From assembly GCF_900143005.1 (NCBI RefSeq), contig NZ_FRCS01000005.1, positions 124,001-188,000 of the forward strand: DNA of 64,000 bases, in the 5' to 3' direction. The notes under the pieces are model-generated. The model searched no databases. It saw only the letters and a program-made list of their open reading frames with translations, and had not been told where the DNA came from. Shown here in pieces: positions 1,986-55,691 of the stretch. The translations under genes were made by a program, and so were the position numbers. Each line of letters opens with the position of its first letter. The first letter of the stretch is position 1. Source of the DNA: Cryptosporangium aurantiacum (GTDB taxonomy: Bacteria > Actinomycetota > Actinomycetes > Mycobacteriales > Cryptosporangiaceae).

Positions 1986-4900
1986 CTAGTAGCCGCCGCC
2001 GTGGCGGCCGGTCTCCTCGTCGGCGTAACGACGACGCGCCCGCGGGGACGGCTGGTCGCGGCGATCCGGGTACTCGGCGGCCGGACCGGGCGGGCCGGAT
2101 CGGTAGCCACGCTCCGCGGGGCTTGGCTCGCGTTGCGTCGGCGGCCCGACCGGCTGCGGGTCGGCCCAGGAGCCGCTGGGGCCGAGCGGGTCGTGCACCG
2201 GCCAGGCGCCGGTGGGTTCAGCGGCGTGCCGACGGCGCGGCGGCGGGGACGCCGCACTCGGGCCGAGGCCGGCGGGACTACCCGGCATCGCCGGGCCGCC
2301 GAGGCCGACCGGGCTACCGAGGCCACCCGGGCCGCCGGGACCGTTCAGCCCGCTCGGGCCGTTCAGGCCGCTGGGGCCGTTCAGGCCGCTGGGGCCGTTC
2401 AGGCCGCTAGGTCCGCCGGGGCCATTGAGGCCGCTCGGGCCGCTGGAACCCAGCCCGCTGGGACCATTGAGGCCGCTGGGACCGTTGAGGCCGCTCGGGC
2501 CGTTGAGGCCGCTCGGGCCGTTGAGGCCGCTCGGGCCGGCGGGGCCCAGCCCGGTTGAGCCGTATTCGTTCGAGCCGTACCCGTTGGGTGCGGCGCCGTT
2601 GGGACCGACCCCGTTCGGGCCCGCCCCGTTCAGGCCTCCACCGTTAGGGCCAGCGCCGTTCAGGCCGGCGCCGTTCGGGCCGAGGCCGCTCGGGCCGACA
2701 CTGTGCGGACCCGCACCGTTCGCGCCAGCGCCGTTAGGCCCGTAGCCACTCGGCCCGAGCCCCGCCCCGGACGGCTGGCCCGCCCCGGACGGCTGGCCCA
2801 GGCCGGACGGCTGGCCCAGGCCGGACGGCTGGCCCAGGCCGGACGGCTGGCCCAGGCCGGACGACCCGAACCCGGACGGCTGGCCTAGCCCGCCCGCCCC
2901 GGACGACCCGAAACCCGATGACTGGCCGAACCCGGACGGCTGGCCCGCTCCCGACGACTGACCGAACCCGGGCGACGGTTGTCCCAGCCCCGACGGCCCG
3001 AGGCCCGCCGACGGCTGGCCCATACCCGATGCCTGCCCCAGACCCGACGGCCCAAGATCCGACGCCCCCAGACCCGACGGTCCCAGACCCGACTGGCCAA
3101 GACCCGACGGACCCGAGCCCGGCTGCCCCGAAACCGGGTGACCGAGCCCCGCACCGGGCTGCCCGGACACCGGCGACTCGGCCCGGCCGTGCCTGCCCCG
3201 CCCGCCACCGGACGCCGACTCGGCGTACCCGGCCGACTCGGCGTACCCGGCCGACTCGGCGTACCCGGCCGACTCGGCGTACCCGCCCGACTCGCCGTAC
3301 CCAGCCGGTTCGCCGTACCCGGCCGGTTCGGCGGCGCGCCGCGGCGGCAGCCCGAGCCCGCCGTACTCACGTTCCAGATAGCTCCCGCCCCCGAGGCCAC
3401 CGCCTCCGAGCCCGCCCAGCGGTCCCCCGCCAGCCGCGCCGTTCACCGCCGACGGCTCGCTCGACGGCGTCGCACCGTTCGTGCCTCGGCCGTACGACGG
3501 CGGGACGTTGCCTGGCTGCTCCGGCGTCGAGGCTGCCTCGTCCCAGCGCGGCGGCGTCCACTCGGCGGCGGGCGCCGGTTCTTCGGACGTCGGCCACGAC
3601 CAGATCGGCTCCTCCGGCGGCGCCCAGGTGGGCTCGGCCGGCGGGGTGAACACCGCAGACGCCCCGGCGGTGAGATCGCCGCTGGTCCGCGCGTCGGGCT
3701 CGGGGTCGGAGAGCGGAAGATCAGGCAGCGAGAGAATCGCGGGCTCGACGGGCGCAGGCGACACCGGAGCCGCGTCGTCCGGCGAGTCCTTCGTGACGTC
3801 GTTGCGAACCAGCCGCGCCCAGGTCGCCGCCGCCCAGTCACCCAGGTCGGCCGCACCGTTCGGGCCCGGCGCGAGCTCCAGCTCGCCGGTGGGGGCCGCG
3901 ATCGACTCCGTGTACGGCGGCGGCGAGACCAACGGTGTGCTCGGCGCGTACTCCGGCTCGGTCGTACCCGGCACCGGGTAGCTGCCGGTGTCCTTCTCGC
4001 TCTGTGCCGCTGCCGCGGCCCGGCGAGCCGCCCGGCCGCCACGAACCGGTTCTCTGACCGGCTCCGACGCCGCTTCGTCAGCCTGCGGAGCAGCATGCGA
4101 CGGAGCGTGCGCCGACGCCACTTCCGCGGCGTCCGGCTCCGGCTCCGGGTCGTACGGCGCGTCGTCCGGACCGGCCATGATCGTCCGGTAGGTCGCGGTG
4201 TTCTCGACCGCGAGCGGCGGCGCCGAGTGCGAGAAGCTCGCGGCCCACGACGACGTCGCCGCGCTCTCCGGGAGCAGCGACTCGAACCGCCGGTTGAGCG
4301 CGGAGAGGACCGCCCGCACCATCGCCTGGCGGGCGTCTCCGCGAACCAGCGCCACGCCGGCGAGCCGATCGACCTGCCCCGGCGTCAGCAGTGTCACGAC
4401 CGCCACCGCGAGCCGGTCGGAGCCGATGTCGGTCAGTTCGGCCTGGTCGAGACCGCACCGGGCGCGGCCCTCCAGGAGCGCGTCGACCGCGTTGAGGGTC
4501 GCGCCTGCCACCGTGCGGAGCACCGTGCGCTCGACGGCCGGCCCGGTGGCCGAGCCGACCACGCGCGCTGTGGCCGTCGCGAGCGCGACGTCCACCCGGA
4601 CATCCAGACCGCCGGTGACGACCTGTAAACGCTCCAGGTGGACGCGGCGCTGCGGGCCGTCGAGCGGGACGCTCCGATCCTCGTCCACTCCGTCGTCCAC
4701 CAGCACGGACCGGGTCTGGTCCACCTCCACGCCGAGCCTTTCGTCAAGGATCCGGGTCACTGACCACGCCACTGCGGCCTCGTCGGCACCGTCGACGAGA
4801 TCCAGATGCAGAGTACGGTCTCCACCCGCCGCCGTCCGAAGCTCGGCGCTACGGACCCCGACGACCGCGCGTACGGCATCGAGCAACGCGGCCACCGCGA

Positions 4901-5972: not shown

Positions 5973-6200
5973 GTGGAGGTCAAGATCGGCGTGCAGTTCG
6001 CTCCACGCGAGCTCGTGCTGGAGAGCACCCAGAGCCAGGACGACGTGGAGCAGGCGGTCGCCGAGGCGCTGGCCGGCAAGAACAACCTGCTGTCCCTGGT
6101 CGACGAGAAGGGGCGGCGGGTGGTCGTTCCGGCCGACAAGATCGCCTACGTCGAAATCGCCGAAAGCGAACTACGCCGAGTAGGCTTCGGCACCCCTTAG
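5973..6200 (+). CDS. DUF3107 small protein
   Basis: A 75-residue protein (VEVKIGVQFAPRELVLES at the start, DKIAYVEIAESELRRVGFG at the end) matching the actinobacterial DUF3107 family, of which mycobacterial TB9.4/Rv3208A is a member. It is a single compact beta/alpha domain without membrane segments, and its function is unknown. The GTG start at 5973 is set by AGGAGG at 5960-5965. Its TAG stop codon is also the first triplet of a palindromic element (6198-6322). Confidence 0.92.
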   Translation: MEVKIGVQFAPRELVLESTQSQDDVEQAVAEALAGKNNLLSLVDEKGRRVVVPADKIAYVEIAESELRRVGFGTP

Positions 6201-6322
6201 TGGGCGGCCCGGTCAGGCCGACGCTGACGGGCGAGCGAGCCTCCTTATGGCAACAGGCCAAAGGTCACGGCGTCGGCTCGCTCGACCGCCAGCCCCGCCC
6301 TGACCGGGCTCCAGGTCCGTAG
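6198..6322 (+). repeat. stop-codon-anchored palindromic element, copy A
   Basis: Starts at the TAG stop of the DUF3107 gene, continues TGGGCGGCCCGGTCAGG and ends CCTGACCGGGCTCCAGGTCC. The inner 11-bp arms (6207-6217 and 6299-6309) are perfectly complementary. Pairing continues inward to about 34 positions with a few mismatches, including CGAGCGAGCC / GGCTCGCTCG, around a short unpaired core. Three further copies are at 12330, 51288 and 55575. Confidence 0.85.
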
Positions 6323-6370
6323 CAGGTACAACTGCGCGCGCCTGGCGGCGCTTTACAAGCAATAGTCGGA

Positions 6371-6404
6371 CGCCCGGCCGCGAGGAATCGCGGCCGGGCG
6401 TTTG
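6371..6404. terminator. intrinsic terminator between convergent genes
   Basis: Perfect 12-bp stem CGCCCGGCCGCG / CGCGGCCGGGCG with a 6-nt loop, followed by TTTG on the plus strand. It sits between DUF3107 (rightward) and the ferritin-like gene (leftward). Confidence 0.8.
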
Positions 6405-10548: not shown

Positions 10549-11445
10549 GTGACTCAGCTCGCCCCCCACCGCGCCACCCGTGTCGTCTTCTCCGTCTCGG
10601 ACTACCCGGTCGCCGGGTGGGACGCGCCGCCGCCCGCGGGGATTCATCGCGGCACCGCGCTGTTCGTCCCGGGTTACACCGGCAGCAAGGAAGACTTCGC
10701 ACCGCTCTTCGACCCGCTGACCGACGCCGGCTACCGTGTCGTCGCGATCGACCAGCCCGGTCAGTTCGAGTCCCCGGGCCCCGAGTCGCCGCTCGGCTAC
10801 ACGGTGGCCCGGCTCGCCGACGTCGTCCGTGCGGTCGTCGCGGCGCTCGGCGACGGCCCGGTGCACCTGGTCGGGCACTCGTTCGGTGGGCTGGTGTCCC
10901 GGGGCGCCGTGCTGTCCGCGCCGGGTGAGTTCCGGTCGCTCACGCTGCTCTGCTCGGGCCCGGAGGCGATCGTCGGCGCCCGGCGTGACCGGATGGCCCG
11001 GCTGGAACCGCTGCTGCCGCTCGGCATGGCCGCGGTCTACGAGGCGGTCGAGGAGGGTGCCCGGCTCGACCCCAAGTGGCAGGAGGCCTCGCCCGAGCTG
11101 AAGGCGTTCCTGAAGAAGCGGTTCGTCGCGTCGTCGGCGGCGGGCCTGCGCGGGATGGGCGACGCGCTCGGATCCGAGCCGGACCGCACGGCCGAACTGG
11201 CCGCGGCGGGTCTTCCGCTGCTGGTCTGCCACGGCGAGCATGATGACGCTTGGCTGCCGCCGGTGCAGGCCGACATGGCGCGGCGGCTCGGCGCACGGCA
11301 CGTGGTGATCCCGCAGGCCGCGCACTCGCCGGCGATCGAGAACAGCGCGCAGACGGTCGTGGCGCTGGAGCAGTTCTGGCGTTCGGTCGACGACCTGGAC
11401 GACCGGGCGGTTCCGGCGTCCGGGGTGCACACTGAGACTCAGTGA
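10549..11445 (+). CDS. alpha/beta-fold hydrolase
   Basis: A 298-residue alpha/beta hydrolase starting at GTG 10549. Motifs: VPGYTGSKEDF (oxyanion loop), GHSFGGLVS (nucleophile Ser elbow), CHGEHDDAW (acid) and PQAAHSPAIEN (catalytic His). There is no secretion signal. The substrate is unknown. The MpaB-like gene begins 26 nt downstream and is probably co-transcribed. It is not closely similar to the other hydrolase at 758-1777. Confidence 0.87.
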   Translation: MTQLAPHRATRVVFSVSDYPVAGWDAPPPAGIHRGTALFVPGYTGSKEDFAPLFDPLTDAGYRVVAIDQPGQFESPGPESPLGYTVARLADVVRAVVAALGDGPVHLVGHSFGGLVSRGAVLSAPGEFRSLTLLCSGPEAIVGARRDRMARLEPLLPLGMAAVYEAVEEGARLDPKWQEASPELKAFLKKRFVASSAAGLRGMGDALGSEPDRTAELAAAGLPLLVCHGEHDDAWLPPVQADMARRLGARHVVIPQAAHSPAIENSAQTVVALEQFWRSVDDLDDRAVPASGVHTETQ

Positions 11446-11471: not shown

Positions 11472-12332
11472 ATGGTGATCTCCGACCTCGGCCTGTACGG
11501 GCCGGAGAGCGTCACCTGGCGGATCCACTCGGATCCGTCGCTCGCTGTGGGCGGGTTGCGCGCGCTGCTGCTGCAGGCGCTGCATCCGGTCGCGATGGCC
11601 GGTGTCTCGGCGAACTCCGGATATCGGGACGACCCGTGGGGCCGTCTGCAGCGCACCACCGAGTACGTGGCGATCACGACGTTCGGCACGGCCGGGGCCG
11701 CCGAGGAGGCGGCGAGCAAGATCCGTCGCCTGCACCGGCGGCTGACCGCGGTCGACCCGGACTCCGGTGAGGTCTATCCGGTGGACGACCCGTCGCTCCT
11801 GCTCTGGGTGCACTGCTGCGAGGTGGACTCGTTCCTCTCCACGGCGCGGCGCGCCGGCGTGCGCCTGTCGGACGCCGACGCGGACCGGTACGTCGCGGAG
11901 CAGGTGCGCCAGGCCCGGCTGATCGGTCTCACCCCGGACGCCATCGAGGTGCCGCGTACGAGCGCGGAGCTCGACGCGTACTTCACCGACGTCCGGCCGC
12001 TGTTGCGCGCTACCCGGCCGGCGTACGAGGGGCTCAAGCTGCTGAGCGCTCCCCCGATGCGCTGGTGGGTGCGGTGGGCGACGCCGGCAGCGCCGAGTTG
12101 GGGCGCGCTGGTCGCGATGGGGTTCGGGCTGCTCCCGGGGTGGGCCAAGCGGCTCTACACGCACCTGCCCGCGCTGCCGGGCAGCGAGATGACGGCCACC
12201 GCGAGCCTGCGGACGCTGCGCGCCGCGGTGCTGGCGCTGCCGGCGTCGGTGCGCGAGGGGCCACAGCTCAAGGCCGCCCGCGCCCGCGTGGCCGCCGTCC
12301 CCATCCGCCGCCTCGAATCCCTTCCTGCGTGA
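11472..12332 (+). CDS. MpaB-like oxygenase (DUF2236)
   Basis: A 286-residue protein of the DUF2236/MpaB group, related to latex-clearing-protein haem oxygenases. Family features visible are the N-terminal WRIHSDPSLAVGGLRALLLQALHPVAMAGV, where His in LLQALHP is the expected haem ligand, and the RTTEYVAITTFG segment. The start ATG at 11472 has GGAGG 4 nt upstream. The substrate is unknown; many homologues are uncharacterised. Its TGA stop opens a shortened palindromic element at 12330. Confidence 0.85.
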   Translation: MVISDLGLYGPESVTWRIHSDPSLAVGGLRALLLQALHPVAMAGVSANSGYRDDPWGRLQRTTEYVAITTFGTAGAAEEAASKIRRLHRRLTAVDPDSGEVYPVDDPSLLLWVHCCEVDSFLSTARRAGVRLSDADADRYVAEQVRQARLIGLTPDAIEVPRTSAELDAYFTDVRPLLRATRPAYEGLKLLSAPPMRWWVRWATPAAPSWGALVAMGFGLLPGWAKRLYTHLPALPGSEMTATASLRTLRAAVLALPASVREGPQLKAARARVAAVPIRRLESLPA

Positions 12333-12364
12333 GCGGCCCGCCGAGGGGGGCTCCAGGTCCGTAG
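12330..12364 (+). repeat. stop-codon-anchored palindromic element, shortened copy B
   Basis: Begins at the TGA stop of the MpaB-like gene. It carries the shared left end GCGGCCCGCCGAGG directly joined to the shared right end GGGGCTCCAGGTCCGTAG, so the internal hairpin arms of the other copies are missing. It looks like an internal deletion derivative. Confidence 0.7.
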
Positions 12365-12372
12365 GGAGCCGC

Positions 12373-29240: not shown

Positions 29241-30094
29241 GACGCGTCCCCCGCCACCGAACCGCCGTCGACCCCAGCCCGCCCGGACGCAGGACCGCCG
29301 GACGCAGGACCGCCGGACGCAGGACCGCCGGACGCAGGACCGCCGGACGCAGGACCGCCGGACGCAGGACCGCCGGACGCAGGACCGCCGGGCGCGGGGG
29401 CGCTGGGCGGCGGCGAGTCGCCGCGGGCAAGGAGGGTTCGGCCGACGGCGAGGACACCGAACGACGCCAAGAGCACCGGGACGCCTGGCGGCAGCCACGG
29501 CGTGGCCACCAGCGCGATCACCGCTCCGGCGGCGGCCACCCGCCACGCACCCCCACCCTCGCGCAGCCGAGGCGCGAGCAGCGCGAGGAACCCGGCCGGC
29601 GCTGCGGCGTCCAGACCTAGGACCGCGGGGTCGCCGACCGCGGTCGCACCCGCCGCCCCGAGCAGCGTCGCAGCGTTCCAGAGCACGAACACGCTGGTCG
29701 CCGTCGAGACGAACGCGAGCCGCGACGCGGCGGGGGTCGGCTGGGCGAGCGCCATCGCCGCCGATTCGTCGATCACGCCTTGCGCGGCGACCGCCCGCCG
29801 CCACCCCGACCACCCCAGCAGCCCCGACAGCCGGACGCCGTACAGCGCGTTCCGCGCACCGAGCAGCAGCGCCGAACCGACCGCGGCGGGCACCCCACCA
29901 CCCGCTCCGACGACACCGACCAGCGCGAACTGGCTCGCGCCGGTGAACACGAGCAGGCTGCTCAGGCAGGTCTGCAAGATGCTCAACCCGGCGGCGACAC
30001 CGGCCGCGCCGAACGCGATCCCGTACGCCCCGGTGGCGACGCCGACGCCGAGCGCGTCGCGGAGGATCGTGCGGGACTGCGGGGTTGATTCCAT
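29237..30094 (-). CDS. azlC: AzlC-type branched-chain amino-acid exporter subunit
   Basis: A 285-residue membrane protein. The AzlC signature is at the N-terminus (GVGVATGAYGIAFGAAGVA, then SSLLVFTGASQFALVGVV and ARNALYGVRLS), with about six helices. It exports branched-chain amino acids with AzlD, which overlaps it by 4 nt. The C-terminal tail is unusual: seven 15-bp repeats encode GGPAS units, a flexible cytoplasmic extension absent from typical AzlC proteins. Confidence 0.88.
   Translation of the reverse strand: MESTPQSRTILRDALGVGVATGAYGIAFGAAGVAAGLSILQTCLSSLLVFTGASQFALVGVVGAGGGVPAAVGSALLLGARNALYGVRLSGLLGWSGWRRAVAAQGVIDESAAMALAQPTPAASRLAFVSTATSVFVLWNAATLLGAAGATAVGDPAVLGLDAAAPAGFLALLAPRLREGGGAWRVAAAGAVIALVATPWLPPGVPVLLASFGVLAVGRTLLARGDSPPPSAPAPGGPASGGPASGGPASGGPASGGPASGGPASGGPASGRAGVDGGSVAGDAS
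29285..29389 (-). repeat. seven perfect 15-bp coding repeats in azlC
   Basis: Seven identical units ggacgcaggaccgcc, encoding GGPAS repeats near the AzlC C-terminus. Identity even at third codon positions points to recent expansion by slippage. Confidence 0.95.
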
Positions 30095-37061: not shown

Positions 37062-37234
37062 CCTAGGCCGCGTTCTATGAGCCTCGCTCTCGCGAGGCCC
37101 CACGCAGACGTCGTCCGGCGTCGGCGGAGATCCGTCCGCATACGTGCACTGGTCTTCGGGCGGATCTCCGCCGCCGCCGGGCGGCGTCTGGGCGGGTCCG
37201 CAGCAGAGCACGGGCTCATGGAACGTGGCCTAGG
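37062..37234. repeat. large imperfect palindrome between convergent genes
   Basis: Outer arms 37062-37084 and 37212-37234 pair at 20 of 23 positions (several of the exceptions are G-U). Inner arms 37123-37134 and 37161-37172 (GGCGGAGATCCG / CGGATCTCCGCC) are perfect, with partial pairing between. On the minus strand the fold begins at the glgC TAG stop (37230-37232). It probably serves as a terminator for both convergent genes; its size is unusual. Confidence 0.75.
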
Positions 37235-50324: not shown

Positions 50325-51290
50325 ATGTCGCTCAGCCCCACGGACGTCGGCCACCGTGTCGTCGTGCGAAGGGTCCTCGGCGACCCCGATGCCGTTCGAC
50401 CGCAGTACGGCGACGTTCTCGGGGAGCTTATCGAGCTGGACGCCGAACGCCAGCGCGTAGTGGTGAGAACCGCAACCGGGGACACGGTCGCGGTGGCCGT
50501 CGCGGACGTCGTCGCGGCGAAGCGGATCCCGCCCCGGCCGCCCGGTTCGCTGCCGGTCGCGGATCTGGAGCTGGAGCGGATCGCCGCGCTGGGCTGGCGC
50601 GGGCTGGACACCGCGACGCTGGGCGACTGGCAGCTGCGGGCGGCAGGCGGGTGGACCGGACGGGCGAACTCCGTGCTGCCGCTGGGCGACCCGGGGATGC
50701 CGCTGGACGCCGCGCTGGACGTCGTCCGGGATTGGTACTCCGCCCGCGACCTGCCGCCGACGGTCCAGCTGCCGCTGCCCGCGTGCGACGAGCTGCGCCG
50801 CGCGCTGGAGGAGCGGGGCTGGTCGGATCGGTGGGGTGCGCTGGTGCTGGTGGCGAGCGTCCGGGCGCTGCGGGCGGCGCGCCTGGCGGTGCCGGGGCTG
50901 CCGCCGGTGACCGTCGCCGCGGAGCCCGACGACGCCTGGCTGGCCGCGTACCACTACCGGGGAGACGCGCTCCCCGCGGTGGCTCTGGACGTGCTGCGGA
51001 ACGCCGCCGCACCGGGGTTCGCCGCCGTGCGGCTGGACGGCGTGCCGGTGGCGATCTGCCGCCTCGTGGTCGACGAGGGGTGGATGGGAATCACCGCGCT
51101 CGAGGTCGACCCGGCGCACCGTCGGCGCGGGCTGGCCACGCACCTGCTGGCGGGCACCGTCGAGTACGCCGCCGGGCAGGGCGCGCGTGGCGTCTACCTG
51201 CAGGTGGACTCCGACAACACCGGGGCGGTCGCGATGTACGAAAAGCTCGGCTTCCGCCACCACCACACCTACCGGTATTACCGGCCTTAG
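50325..51290 (+). CDS. GNAT acetyltransferase
   Basis: A 321-residue protein. The N-terminal half (residues 1 to about 190) has an SH3-like strand region (GHRVVVRRVLGDPDAVRPQYGD) and an unassigned domain. The C-terminal GNAT domain shows MGITALEVDPAHRRRGLATHLLAGTVEYA (acetyl-CoA loop R-R-x-G-L-A) and YLQVDSDNTGAVAMYEKLGFR. The substrate is unknown. ATG 50325 has GAGG 8 nt upstream; GTG 50316 is possible. The TAG stop opens a palindromic element (51288). Confidence 0.86.
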   Translation: MSLSPTDVGHRVVVRRVLGDPDAVRPQYGDVLGELIELDAERQRVVVRTATGDTVAVAVADVVAAKRIPPRPPGSLPVADLELERIAALGWRGLDTATLGDWQLRAAGGWTGRANSVLPLGDPGMPLDAALDVVRDWYSARDLPPTVQLPLPACDELRRALEERGWSDRWGALVLVASVRALRAARLAVPGLPPVTVAAEPDDAWLAAYHYRGDALPAVALDVLRNAAAPGFAAVRLDGVPVAICRLVVDEGWMGITALEVDPAHRRRGLATHLLAGTVEYAAGQGARGVYLQVDSDNTGAVAMYEKLGFRHHHTYRYYRP

Positions 51291-51356
51291 TGGGCGGCCC
51301 GCCGAGGGGCGAGCCTGACGCGGACGCCAGCCTCGTCCTCGGCGGGCTCCAGGTTC
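51288..51356 (+). repeat. stop-codon-anchored palindromic element, copy C
   Basis: Begins with the TAG stop of the GNAT gene, continues TGGGCGGCCCGCCGAGG and ends CCTCGGCGGGCTCCAGGTTC. The 11-bp arms 51297-51307 and 51337-51347 are perfectly complementary and their sequence differs from copy A (CCGAGG versus GTCAGG). The interior is short, so it is a compact hairpin of about 50 nt. Confidence 0.85.
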
Positions 51357-51383
51357 AAACCCCAGAGCGTGCCTAGGCGCTTC

Positions 51384-55495: not shown

Positions 55496-55574
55496 CGCGG
55501 CGGACGGCGGCTCGCGGCAAAGCGTCCGCGAAGCGCAGTTGCCGTTGAAGCGCCGCCAGGCGCTCGCATTGTCT

Positions 55575-55691
55575 GAACCTGGAGCCCGCTCAGGGCGTCG
55601 CTGCCGATCGGGCGCGACGACGCCGCGTATGCCGTGATACTCAAGTCGTCCCGCCCGCTCGGCAGCGTCGTCCTGAGCGGGCCGCCCACTA
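55575..55691 (-). repeat. stop-codon-anchored palindromic element, copy D
   Basis: Reading leftward it begins with the TAG stop of the last ABC-transporter gene and TGGGCGGCCCGCTCAGG, and ends CCTGAGCGGGCTCCAGGTTC. Pairing extends over about 37 positions per arm with about four mismatches, around an apical region that includes TATCACGGCATACGCGG. It is the longest and most regular hairpin of the four copies. Confidence 0.87.

Follow-up and report, generated by a model that had tools for sequence, protein, structure and literature searches.

A stop-codon-anchored palindromic repeat family in Cryptosporangium aurantiacum, probably a mobile and lineage-specific REP/MITE-like element

GTAG-tagged REPs are imperfect palindromes that are mostly extragenic and lie near the 3' ends of open reading frames (ORFs), some of them at the ORF ends themselves, according to the accessible text of Di Nocera et al. 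(2013; PMC3733652). They are 20-40 bp long, bear a tag (GTAG or CGTC), and frequently occur together with genes for RAYT (IS200/IS605-type) transposases. They are located mainly between convergent or co-directional genes, and their termini often supply the TAG stop of the flanking ORFs. The same text names ERIC and YPAL as bacterial MITEs (PMC3733652).

Here, we describe a family of palindromic elements in Cryptosporangium aurantiacum, for which the GTAG-tagged REPs, as presented in that text, are the nearest precedent. The family was noticed in a 64,000-nucleotide stretch (contig NZ_FRCS01000005.1, positions 124,001 to 188,000), called the window below, and is estimated to occupy 77 places in the 9.58-Mb genome. 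Like the GTAG-tagged REPs, the elements are extragenic and close to gene 3' ends, 44 of the 77 within 3 nt, and 29 of these at TAG. Unlike them, they measure 100-125 bp and have a second hairpin, the base before TAG varies, and no Y1 gene is present; placement within 3 nt in over half of the copies is a further difference. The missing Y1 gene and the size rule out REP/RAYT membership. The initial annotation of the window knew no named family with such a layout, a statement that has to be qualified by the TAG-supplying REP termini.

With MITEs, the elements share their non-coding, dispersed nature and their variability between related genomes, but there is no clear target duplication and the ends are not a clean terminal inverted repeat. 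ERIC- and YPAL-type MITEs are transcribed imperfect palindromes of about 100-170 bp beside genes, with internally deleted copies; the present elements are likewise imperfect palindromes by genes, with internally deleted copies. MIRU of mycobacteria is a small actinobacterial repeat that inserts at stop-codon sites in one orientation. MIRUs are non-palindromic direct units that sit within operons where stop and start codons overlap, whereas the present elements form hairpins and are found mostly where genes converge (41 of 59 copies have a convergent next gene). Group IIC introns insert directly behind terminator hairpins in one orientation and without target duplication. The present elements resemble them in that they seem to start with GTG, but they are far too short for a ribozyme and most of their sites are stop codons. 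Rfam gave no match in the whole window at gathering scores and, for five loci at E <= 1, only two low-scoring miRNA matches and no group II catalytic RNA domains, so that no known Rfam entry covers the family. In the literature searched, which consisted of openly licensed PMC papers, no description of the family was found. The term 'stop codon' is absent from the accessible text of the MITE review PMC10969869, and no comparable placement rule was found in that of PMC2229807.

The four copies that the initial annotation reported in the window are genuine, and they are part of a far larger family than these four. A covariance model built from 10 copies gave 132 genome matches at E <= 10, many of which are the second strand of the palindrome. 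The 77 places are the 75 distinct places of this model, a copy found by pattern search (L005), and the window copy at 12330. Two weak model matches (C2:103742, E 1.2; C10:223614, E 3.5) and two exact right ends with no other recognisable part of the element (L012 and L017) are left out of this figure; the weakest of the 77 places may not be real, and the model overlooked at least one remnant (L133 near 4430). In this remnant (G000:C1, ~152,420), the left half is gone and TAG is followed directly by CGGGCTCCACGTTC and the second hairpin (H2). A genome search with the right end CGGGCTCCAGGTYC gave 18 exact matches; allowing one mismatch raised this to 92, compared with 34 for the reversed sequence. 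By itself, the left word GGGCGGCCCG does not work as a search key, since it gives 368 matches against 438 for the reversed control. The median identity of 55 full copies is 67%, and copies at different loci in different species are up to 94-96% identical. Many copies are cut down to 30-70 bp.

Several other repeats were seen along the way. In one same-genus genome (G003, L137:1540-1730), a second copy with a tandemly duplicated core of the first hairpin (H1) lies ~430 bp downstream of a full copy; this duplication may be an assembly artefact because an N stands at the junction. An inverted repeat at 37086-37209 of the window has 58-nt arms that are 78% complementary and 8 nt apart, and does not match the covariance model. 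Blocks of 9-, 15- and 18-nt periodic repeats lie within long ORFs at 2287-3339 and 29250-29424 of the window.

The family is restricted to a narrow lineage. Among 61 genomes (C. aurantiacum and 60 relatives), six match at E <= 0.01, namely C. aurantiacum itself, three genomes of the same genus (G001-G003), one of a sister genus with two copies, and one marginal genome of the same order. The same-genus genomes have 36, 43 and at least 57 matches, some of which are the second strand of the same palindrome. In a class-wide draw of 197 genomes, with 17 candidates scored in each, none of the 196 genomes beyond C. aurantiacum matched at E <= 1e-4, at a limited sensitivity that weak or degenerate families could escape. 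The 6198 copy had no match in plasmid and phage collections. The 14-mer TAGTGGGCGGCCCG occurs in 103 viral stretches; this was taken as chance, since the model gave no match at E <= 0.01 on 80 of the 103 stretches and one right-end form searched in viral sequence gave none.

Coincidental GC-rich terminator hairpins, alike through base composition, could be imagined in a sequence as GC-rich as this one, and the frequency of the left word (368 against 438 reversed) would fit. However, model matches reach E 9e-25, 55 of the 56 same-order genomes outside the family have no match and the remaining one is marginal, and the 196 other genomes of the class-wide draw gave none. Furthermore, the copies have a covarying hairpin and a common H2. 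E-values, covariation and lineage restriction together rule this explanation out, and its chance of being correct is negligible.

In full copies, H1 is an imperfect hairpin of 100-125 bp that begins with (G)TG(GG/CA/CG)CGGCCCG on the left and ends with CGGGCTCCASGT on the right. TAA-G, TGA-G, TAG-G and T-run-G are all found before the TG, and (G)TG(GG/CA/CG)C is the preferred reading of the left end. In an alignment of 50 copies, which had been fitted to the structure under test, 95.5% of the cells are paired and 23 of 32 pairs are changed on both sides. The cells changed on both sides number 208, against 15-31 in controls with slid partners. The covariation indicates that the hairpin is kept; it does not distinguish action as DNA from action as RNA, because the alignment was structure-fitted and the arms can be mutually corrected. 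In fact, the covariation could arise from hairpin-templated correction of the arms.

Behind H1, the most complete copies continue into a tail of ~50 bp, CAACTGC-GCGCGCCTGGCGGCGC-TT...GGACGC, which contains the terminator-like palindrome H2. The consensus was aligned from 16 tails of C. aurantiacum and 12 of its relatives, and H2 is recognisable in 16 of the 77 copies. In 178 kb of C. aurantiacum sequence, much of it chosen around elements, all six matches of the H2 palindrome lie at most 60 nt behind an H1 right end. None of 55 element-free gene ends of the window has it, and a looser pattern gave two further matches elsewhere in the window. An insertion of ~187 bp in G003, compared with ~5 bp in G002, spans both H1 and H2. 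By the criterion of a hairpin followed by a T-run, H1 is not an intrinsic terminator, as base counts show no T-run to its right; behind H2, a TT is present in some copies only.

The window copies follow genes that Pfam assigns to DUF3107, MPAB_Lcp_cat, GNAT and ABC_tran/oligo_HPY. These are mutually unrelated, in agreement with the initial annotation. The TAG stop of the DUF3107 gene (6198..6200, plus strand) stands directly left of a full-length H1 (6201..6322, plus strand; model E 5.9e-22, fold z -4.4); the element may already begin with the G of this TAG. The H2 tail of this copy, with CAACTGC, the palindrome GCGCCTGGCGGCGC and GGACGC, occupies 6329..6373 on the plus strand; no counterpart was seen where this site was aligned with the three same-genus relatives. 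The other full-length copy lies on the minus strand. It is bordered by the TAG stop of the ABC transporter ATPase gene (55689..55691) and consists of H1 (55570..55688; model E 2.9e-22, fold z -7.5) and an H2 tail (55523..55569). Both full-length copies run on into H2, beyond the extent first given for them. The GNAT gene ends with TAG at 51288..51290, followed by an H1 copy with an internal deletion at 51291..51360 (both on the plus strand), which matches the model. Behind the TGA stop of the MpaB-like gene (12330..12332, plus strand), there is a short H1 remnant (12333..12366, plus strand) with TGA-GCGGCCCG at its left end and GGGGGCTCCAGGTCC at its right. It lacks the full consensus ends, which had been described as common to all four copies. 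Its fold is about that of shuffled sequence (z 0.11), and the hairpin was not significant in two of three short copies folded.

The initial annotation had the stop codon of the upstream gene as the first triplet of the element. The placement holds, with TAG three times and TGA once; at three of the four sites, however, the position of the stop belongs to the host gene, since relatives that lack the element stop at the same codon. In the genome as a whole, a sense stop codon, according to simple codon-score gene calls, ends within -3 to +3 nt of the left end in the 44 copies mentioned above. It lies inside the element in 15 of the 77, which include a right-half fragment with an undefined left end (L007), and in the remaining 18 it is further away (6) or no sense stop was called near (12). 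The orientation away from the gene, described as invariable, is true of the four window copies and of 59 of the 77 copies genome-wide. For a random noncoding position and orientation, 2.3% would be expected at a stop (164 genes, 25,080 noncoding bases; binomial P ~2e-51), so that placement at random relative to stop codons does not account for the copies. In the relatives, 34 of 51 copies are exact, 7 have the stop inside and 10 are otherwise placed; the 51 include one probable false match (L065) and both sister-genus copies (L064, L069), which are at stops.

The bordering stop is TAG in 29 of the 44, whereas TAG closes 34 of 142 ordinary genes (P 9e-7); in the relatives, the corresponding counts are 24 of 34 and 22 of 89. 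TAG stands directly left of the element in 18 of the 77 copies, and the base before it varies. The preference could in principle be one for a DNA word. A repeat targeted to T-rich tetranucleotides such as TTAG or TTTG, with counter-selection in genes and promoters doing the rest, would profit from the premise that, in a GC-rich genome, such words are found for the most part at stop codons and in the T-tracts of terminators. The T-runs that precede several of the copies away from stops fit this, as does an excess of T in the middle of the last codon (position 2; 17 of 44 against 16 of 142; P 1.5e-4, with three positions tested), and only 2 of the 17 TTAG in the window are coding. However, of the stop-or-noncoding words in the window, only 4 of 15 TTAG and 17 of 120 TAG (14%) are stop codons, yet in 16 of the 18 TAG-bordered copies this TAG serves as the sense stop, and in a 17th a TAG belonging to the gene itself precedes the element. 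We consider a DNA-word target quite unlikely. Since a TAG target with purging from coding sequence gives only 14% at stops, the stop preference is unexplained by known rules.

For 16 copies, there is no sense stop at a distance of up to 75 nt; in 12 of these, an antisense gene ends at most 400 nt downstream, and in 7 of the 12 at most 30 nt. L053, L055 and L087, as well as copies of G003 and G001 in L135, L136 and L081, lie directly behind a hairpin and short T-run, i.e., an intrinsic terminator. L058 has a T-run upstream without a strong hairpin, and L119 lies directly behind a tRNA-Val gene. The common denominator of the landing places is the 3' end of an expressed unit. For several other non-stop copies, no stop, terminator or tRNA feature was recognised.

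Stop codons are also found within the elements. In L048, L051, L090, L112 and L113, the TGA of an antisense or convergent gene (TCA on the element strand) lies within the right end GTCAGAAC. One element can thus border the stops of two genes, because four of these five copies also border a sense stop. At L011, L016, L060, L085 and L110, the genes read into the element and stop at a TGA at +15 or +27, as if the TAG had mutated to TGG, AAG, TCG or GAG. Here, a fallback stop comes from the element, and with it a new, short tail at the C-terminus.

Empty sites in relatives were compared at 15 sites across C. aurantiacum and the three same-genus genomes, with one genome per species; the 809 site was unplaced and the comparison at 11014 partial. 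Filled and empty alleles could be read at nine sites, and at eight of these, the empty allele stops at the same codon. The 17 empty alleles with the same codon have nine TGA, six TAG and two TAA, read by eye. At the ninth site (51288), relatives without the element read on to a different stop codon. The other six comprise one site filled or scarred in all four genomes (C8:181381), one terminator site, one without a sense stop, and three without a full reading. At a terminator site, C. aurantiacum has an apparent scar where G003 and G002 are filled. At G003 7113 and C8:181381, different species have clearly different copies, so that insertion or conversion seems to be recurrent at the same stop codon.

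For the window copies, the 6198 site is empty in all three relatives, and their genes stop at the same codon with TAA, TGA and TGA. The orthologous 12330 site has a full-length copy in G003 behind TAG at the same codon and none in G002 and G001. Behind the MpaB-like gene, G001 has ~1.1 kb of extra sequence (L123, orthologous to window 12366) and G002 and C. aurantiacum have little. At the 51288 site, a diverged copy is present at the same place in G003 and none in G001 and G002. The 55575 site is filled in C. aurantiacum, G001 and G002, and G003 has an element on the convergent gene instead. That gene ends with RKSLAAR* in G003, at a TGA within the element, and with RRSLAL* in C. aurantiacum (translated by hand).

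The initial annotation had offered two readings, a mobile REP/MITE-like element at gene 3' ends and a terminator or mRNA-stability cassette. In a version of the latter, the repeat is a domesticated 3'-UTR RNA module (an mRNA stabiliser, an attenuator or half of a two-part terminator) that is kept at gene ends by selection and spread by rare recombination, so that its location at stop codons would reflect its function. The strong covarying hairpin, the sense orientation, the position of the 6198 copy between stop codon and terminator, and the TT behind the H2 palindrome in part of the copies are in keeping with such a module. Against it, H1 is without a T-run on its right, at each window site, between one and three of the three relatives lack the element behind the orthologous gene, and the ancestral terminator, judged by eye, is still present behind the empty 6198 site in two of them. 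In addition, many copies are only 30-70 bp long, two of the three short copies folded were without a significant hairpin, and the four host genes of the window are unrelated. We regard this as an unlikely origin of the family. A terminator or stability function is conceivable as a consequence of insertion, though no T-run follows H1 and relatives do without the element.

Instead, the mobile reading fits the many dispersed copies, the lineage restriction, the empty sites and the strict placement. From the family itself, its covarying hairpin, its placement, its empty sites and its differences between species, we conclude that it is probably a lineage-specific, non-autonomous mobile palindromic repeat of the REP/MITE-like type, anchored on stop codons. 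A new copy would insert on the sense strand, left end first, immediately after a gene's stop codon or, less often, directly behind an intrinsic terminator T-tract or tRNA, and would leave the host reading frame intact. Later, copies may lose the interior of the hairpin to become remnants or scars of 30-70 bp, and some genes may lose their own stop and end at one inside the element. Copies would presumably spread by a transposition-like event in which an enzyme recognises the hairpin as single-stranded DNA or RNA. This enzyme may be encoded elsewhere, and it is not a recognisable Y1/RAYT transposase. Y1_Tnp (PF01797) was found in none of five genomes (C. aurantiacum, the three of the same genus and the sister genus), and the positive control found it in 5 of 14 named genomes.

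If G is the first base of the element, insertion after the TA of TAA or TAG would recreate TAG. This could explain part of the TAG excess, though not the sites with TGA in relatives. The search for a target duplication, suggested at the outset, gave no clear one. In 70 copies, for k = 2-5 and right-end offsets of 3-17 from a right boundary that is itself uncertain, matches did not consistently exceed those of shuffled pairs, apart from a weak exception (k = 2, offset 6, 7 against 3.7 expected, 9 of 200 shuffles).

A different landing rule would be the 3' end of an expressed unit (stop codon, terminator T-tract or tRNA end) rather than a DNA word, with copies added to RNA 3' ends. Substrates could include tRNAs, transcripts that have terminated, and mRNAs cleaved in the ribosomal A site, and the copies would return to the chromosome through cDNA. 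We think this improbable; if true, the family would be a novel type of mobile element, tied to translation or to the processing of RNA.

To our knowledge, few mobile elements land so exactly on a functional gene boundary. The probably mobile repeat described here shows near-exact placement at stop codons in all four genomes of its genus and also in the two sister-genus copies, and the empty sites in relatives make its landing rule testable. Such placement is a possible way for a repeat to persist in a dense genome without damaging genes. The element is also a source of new C-terminal tails and may be a natural tool for tagging gene 3' ends.
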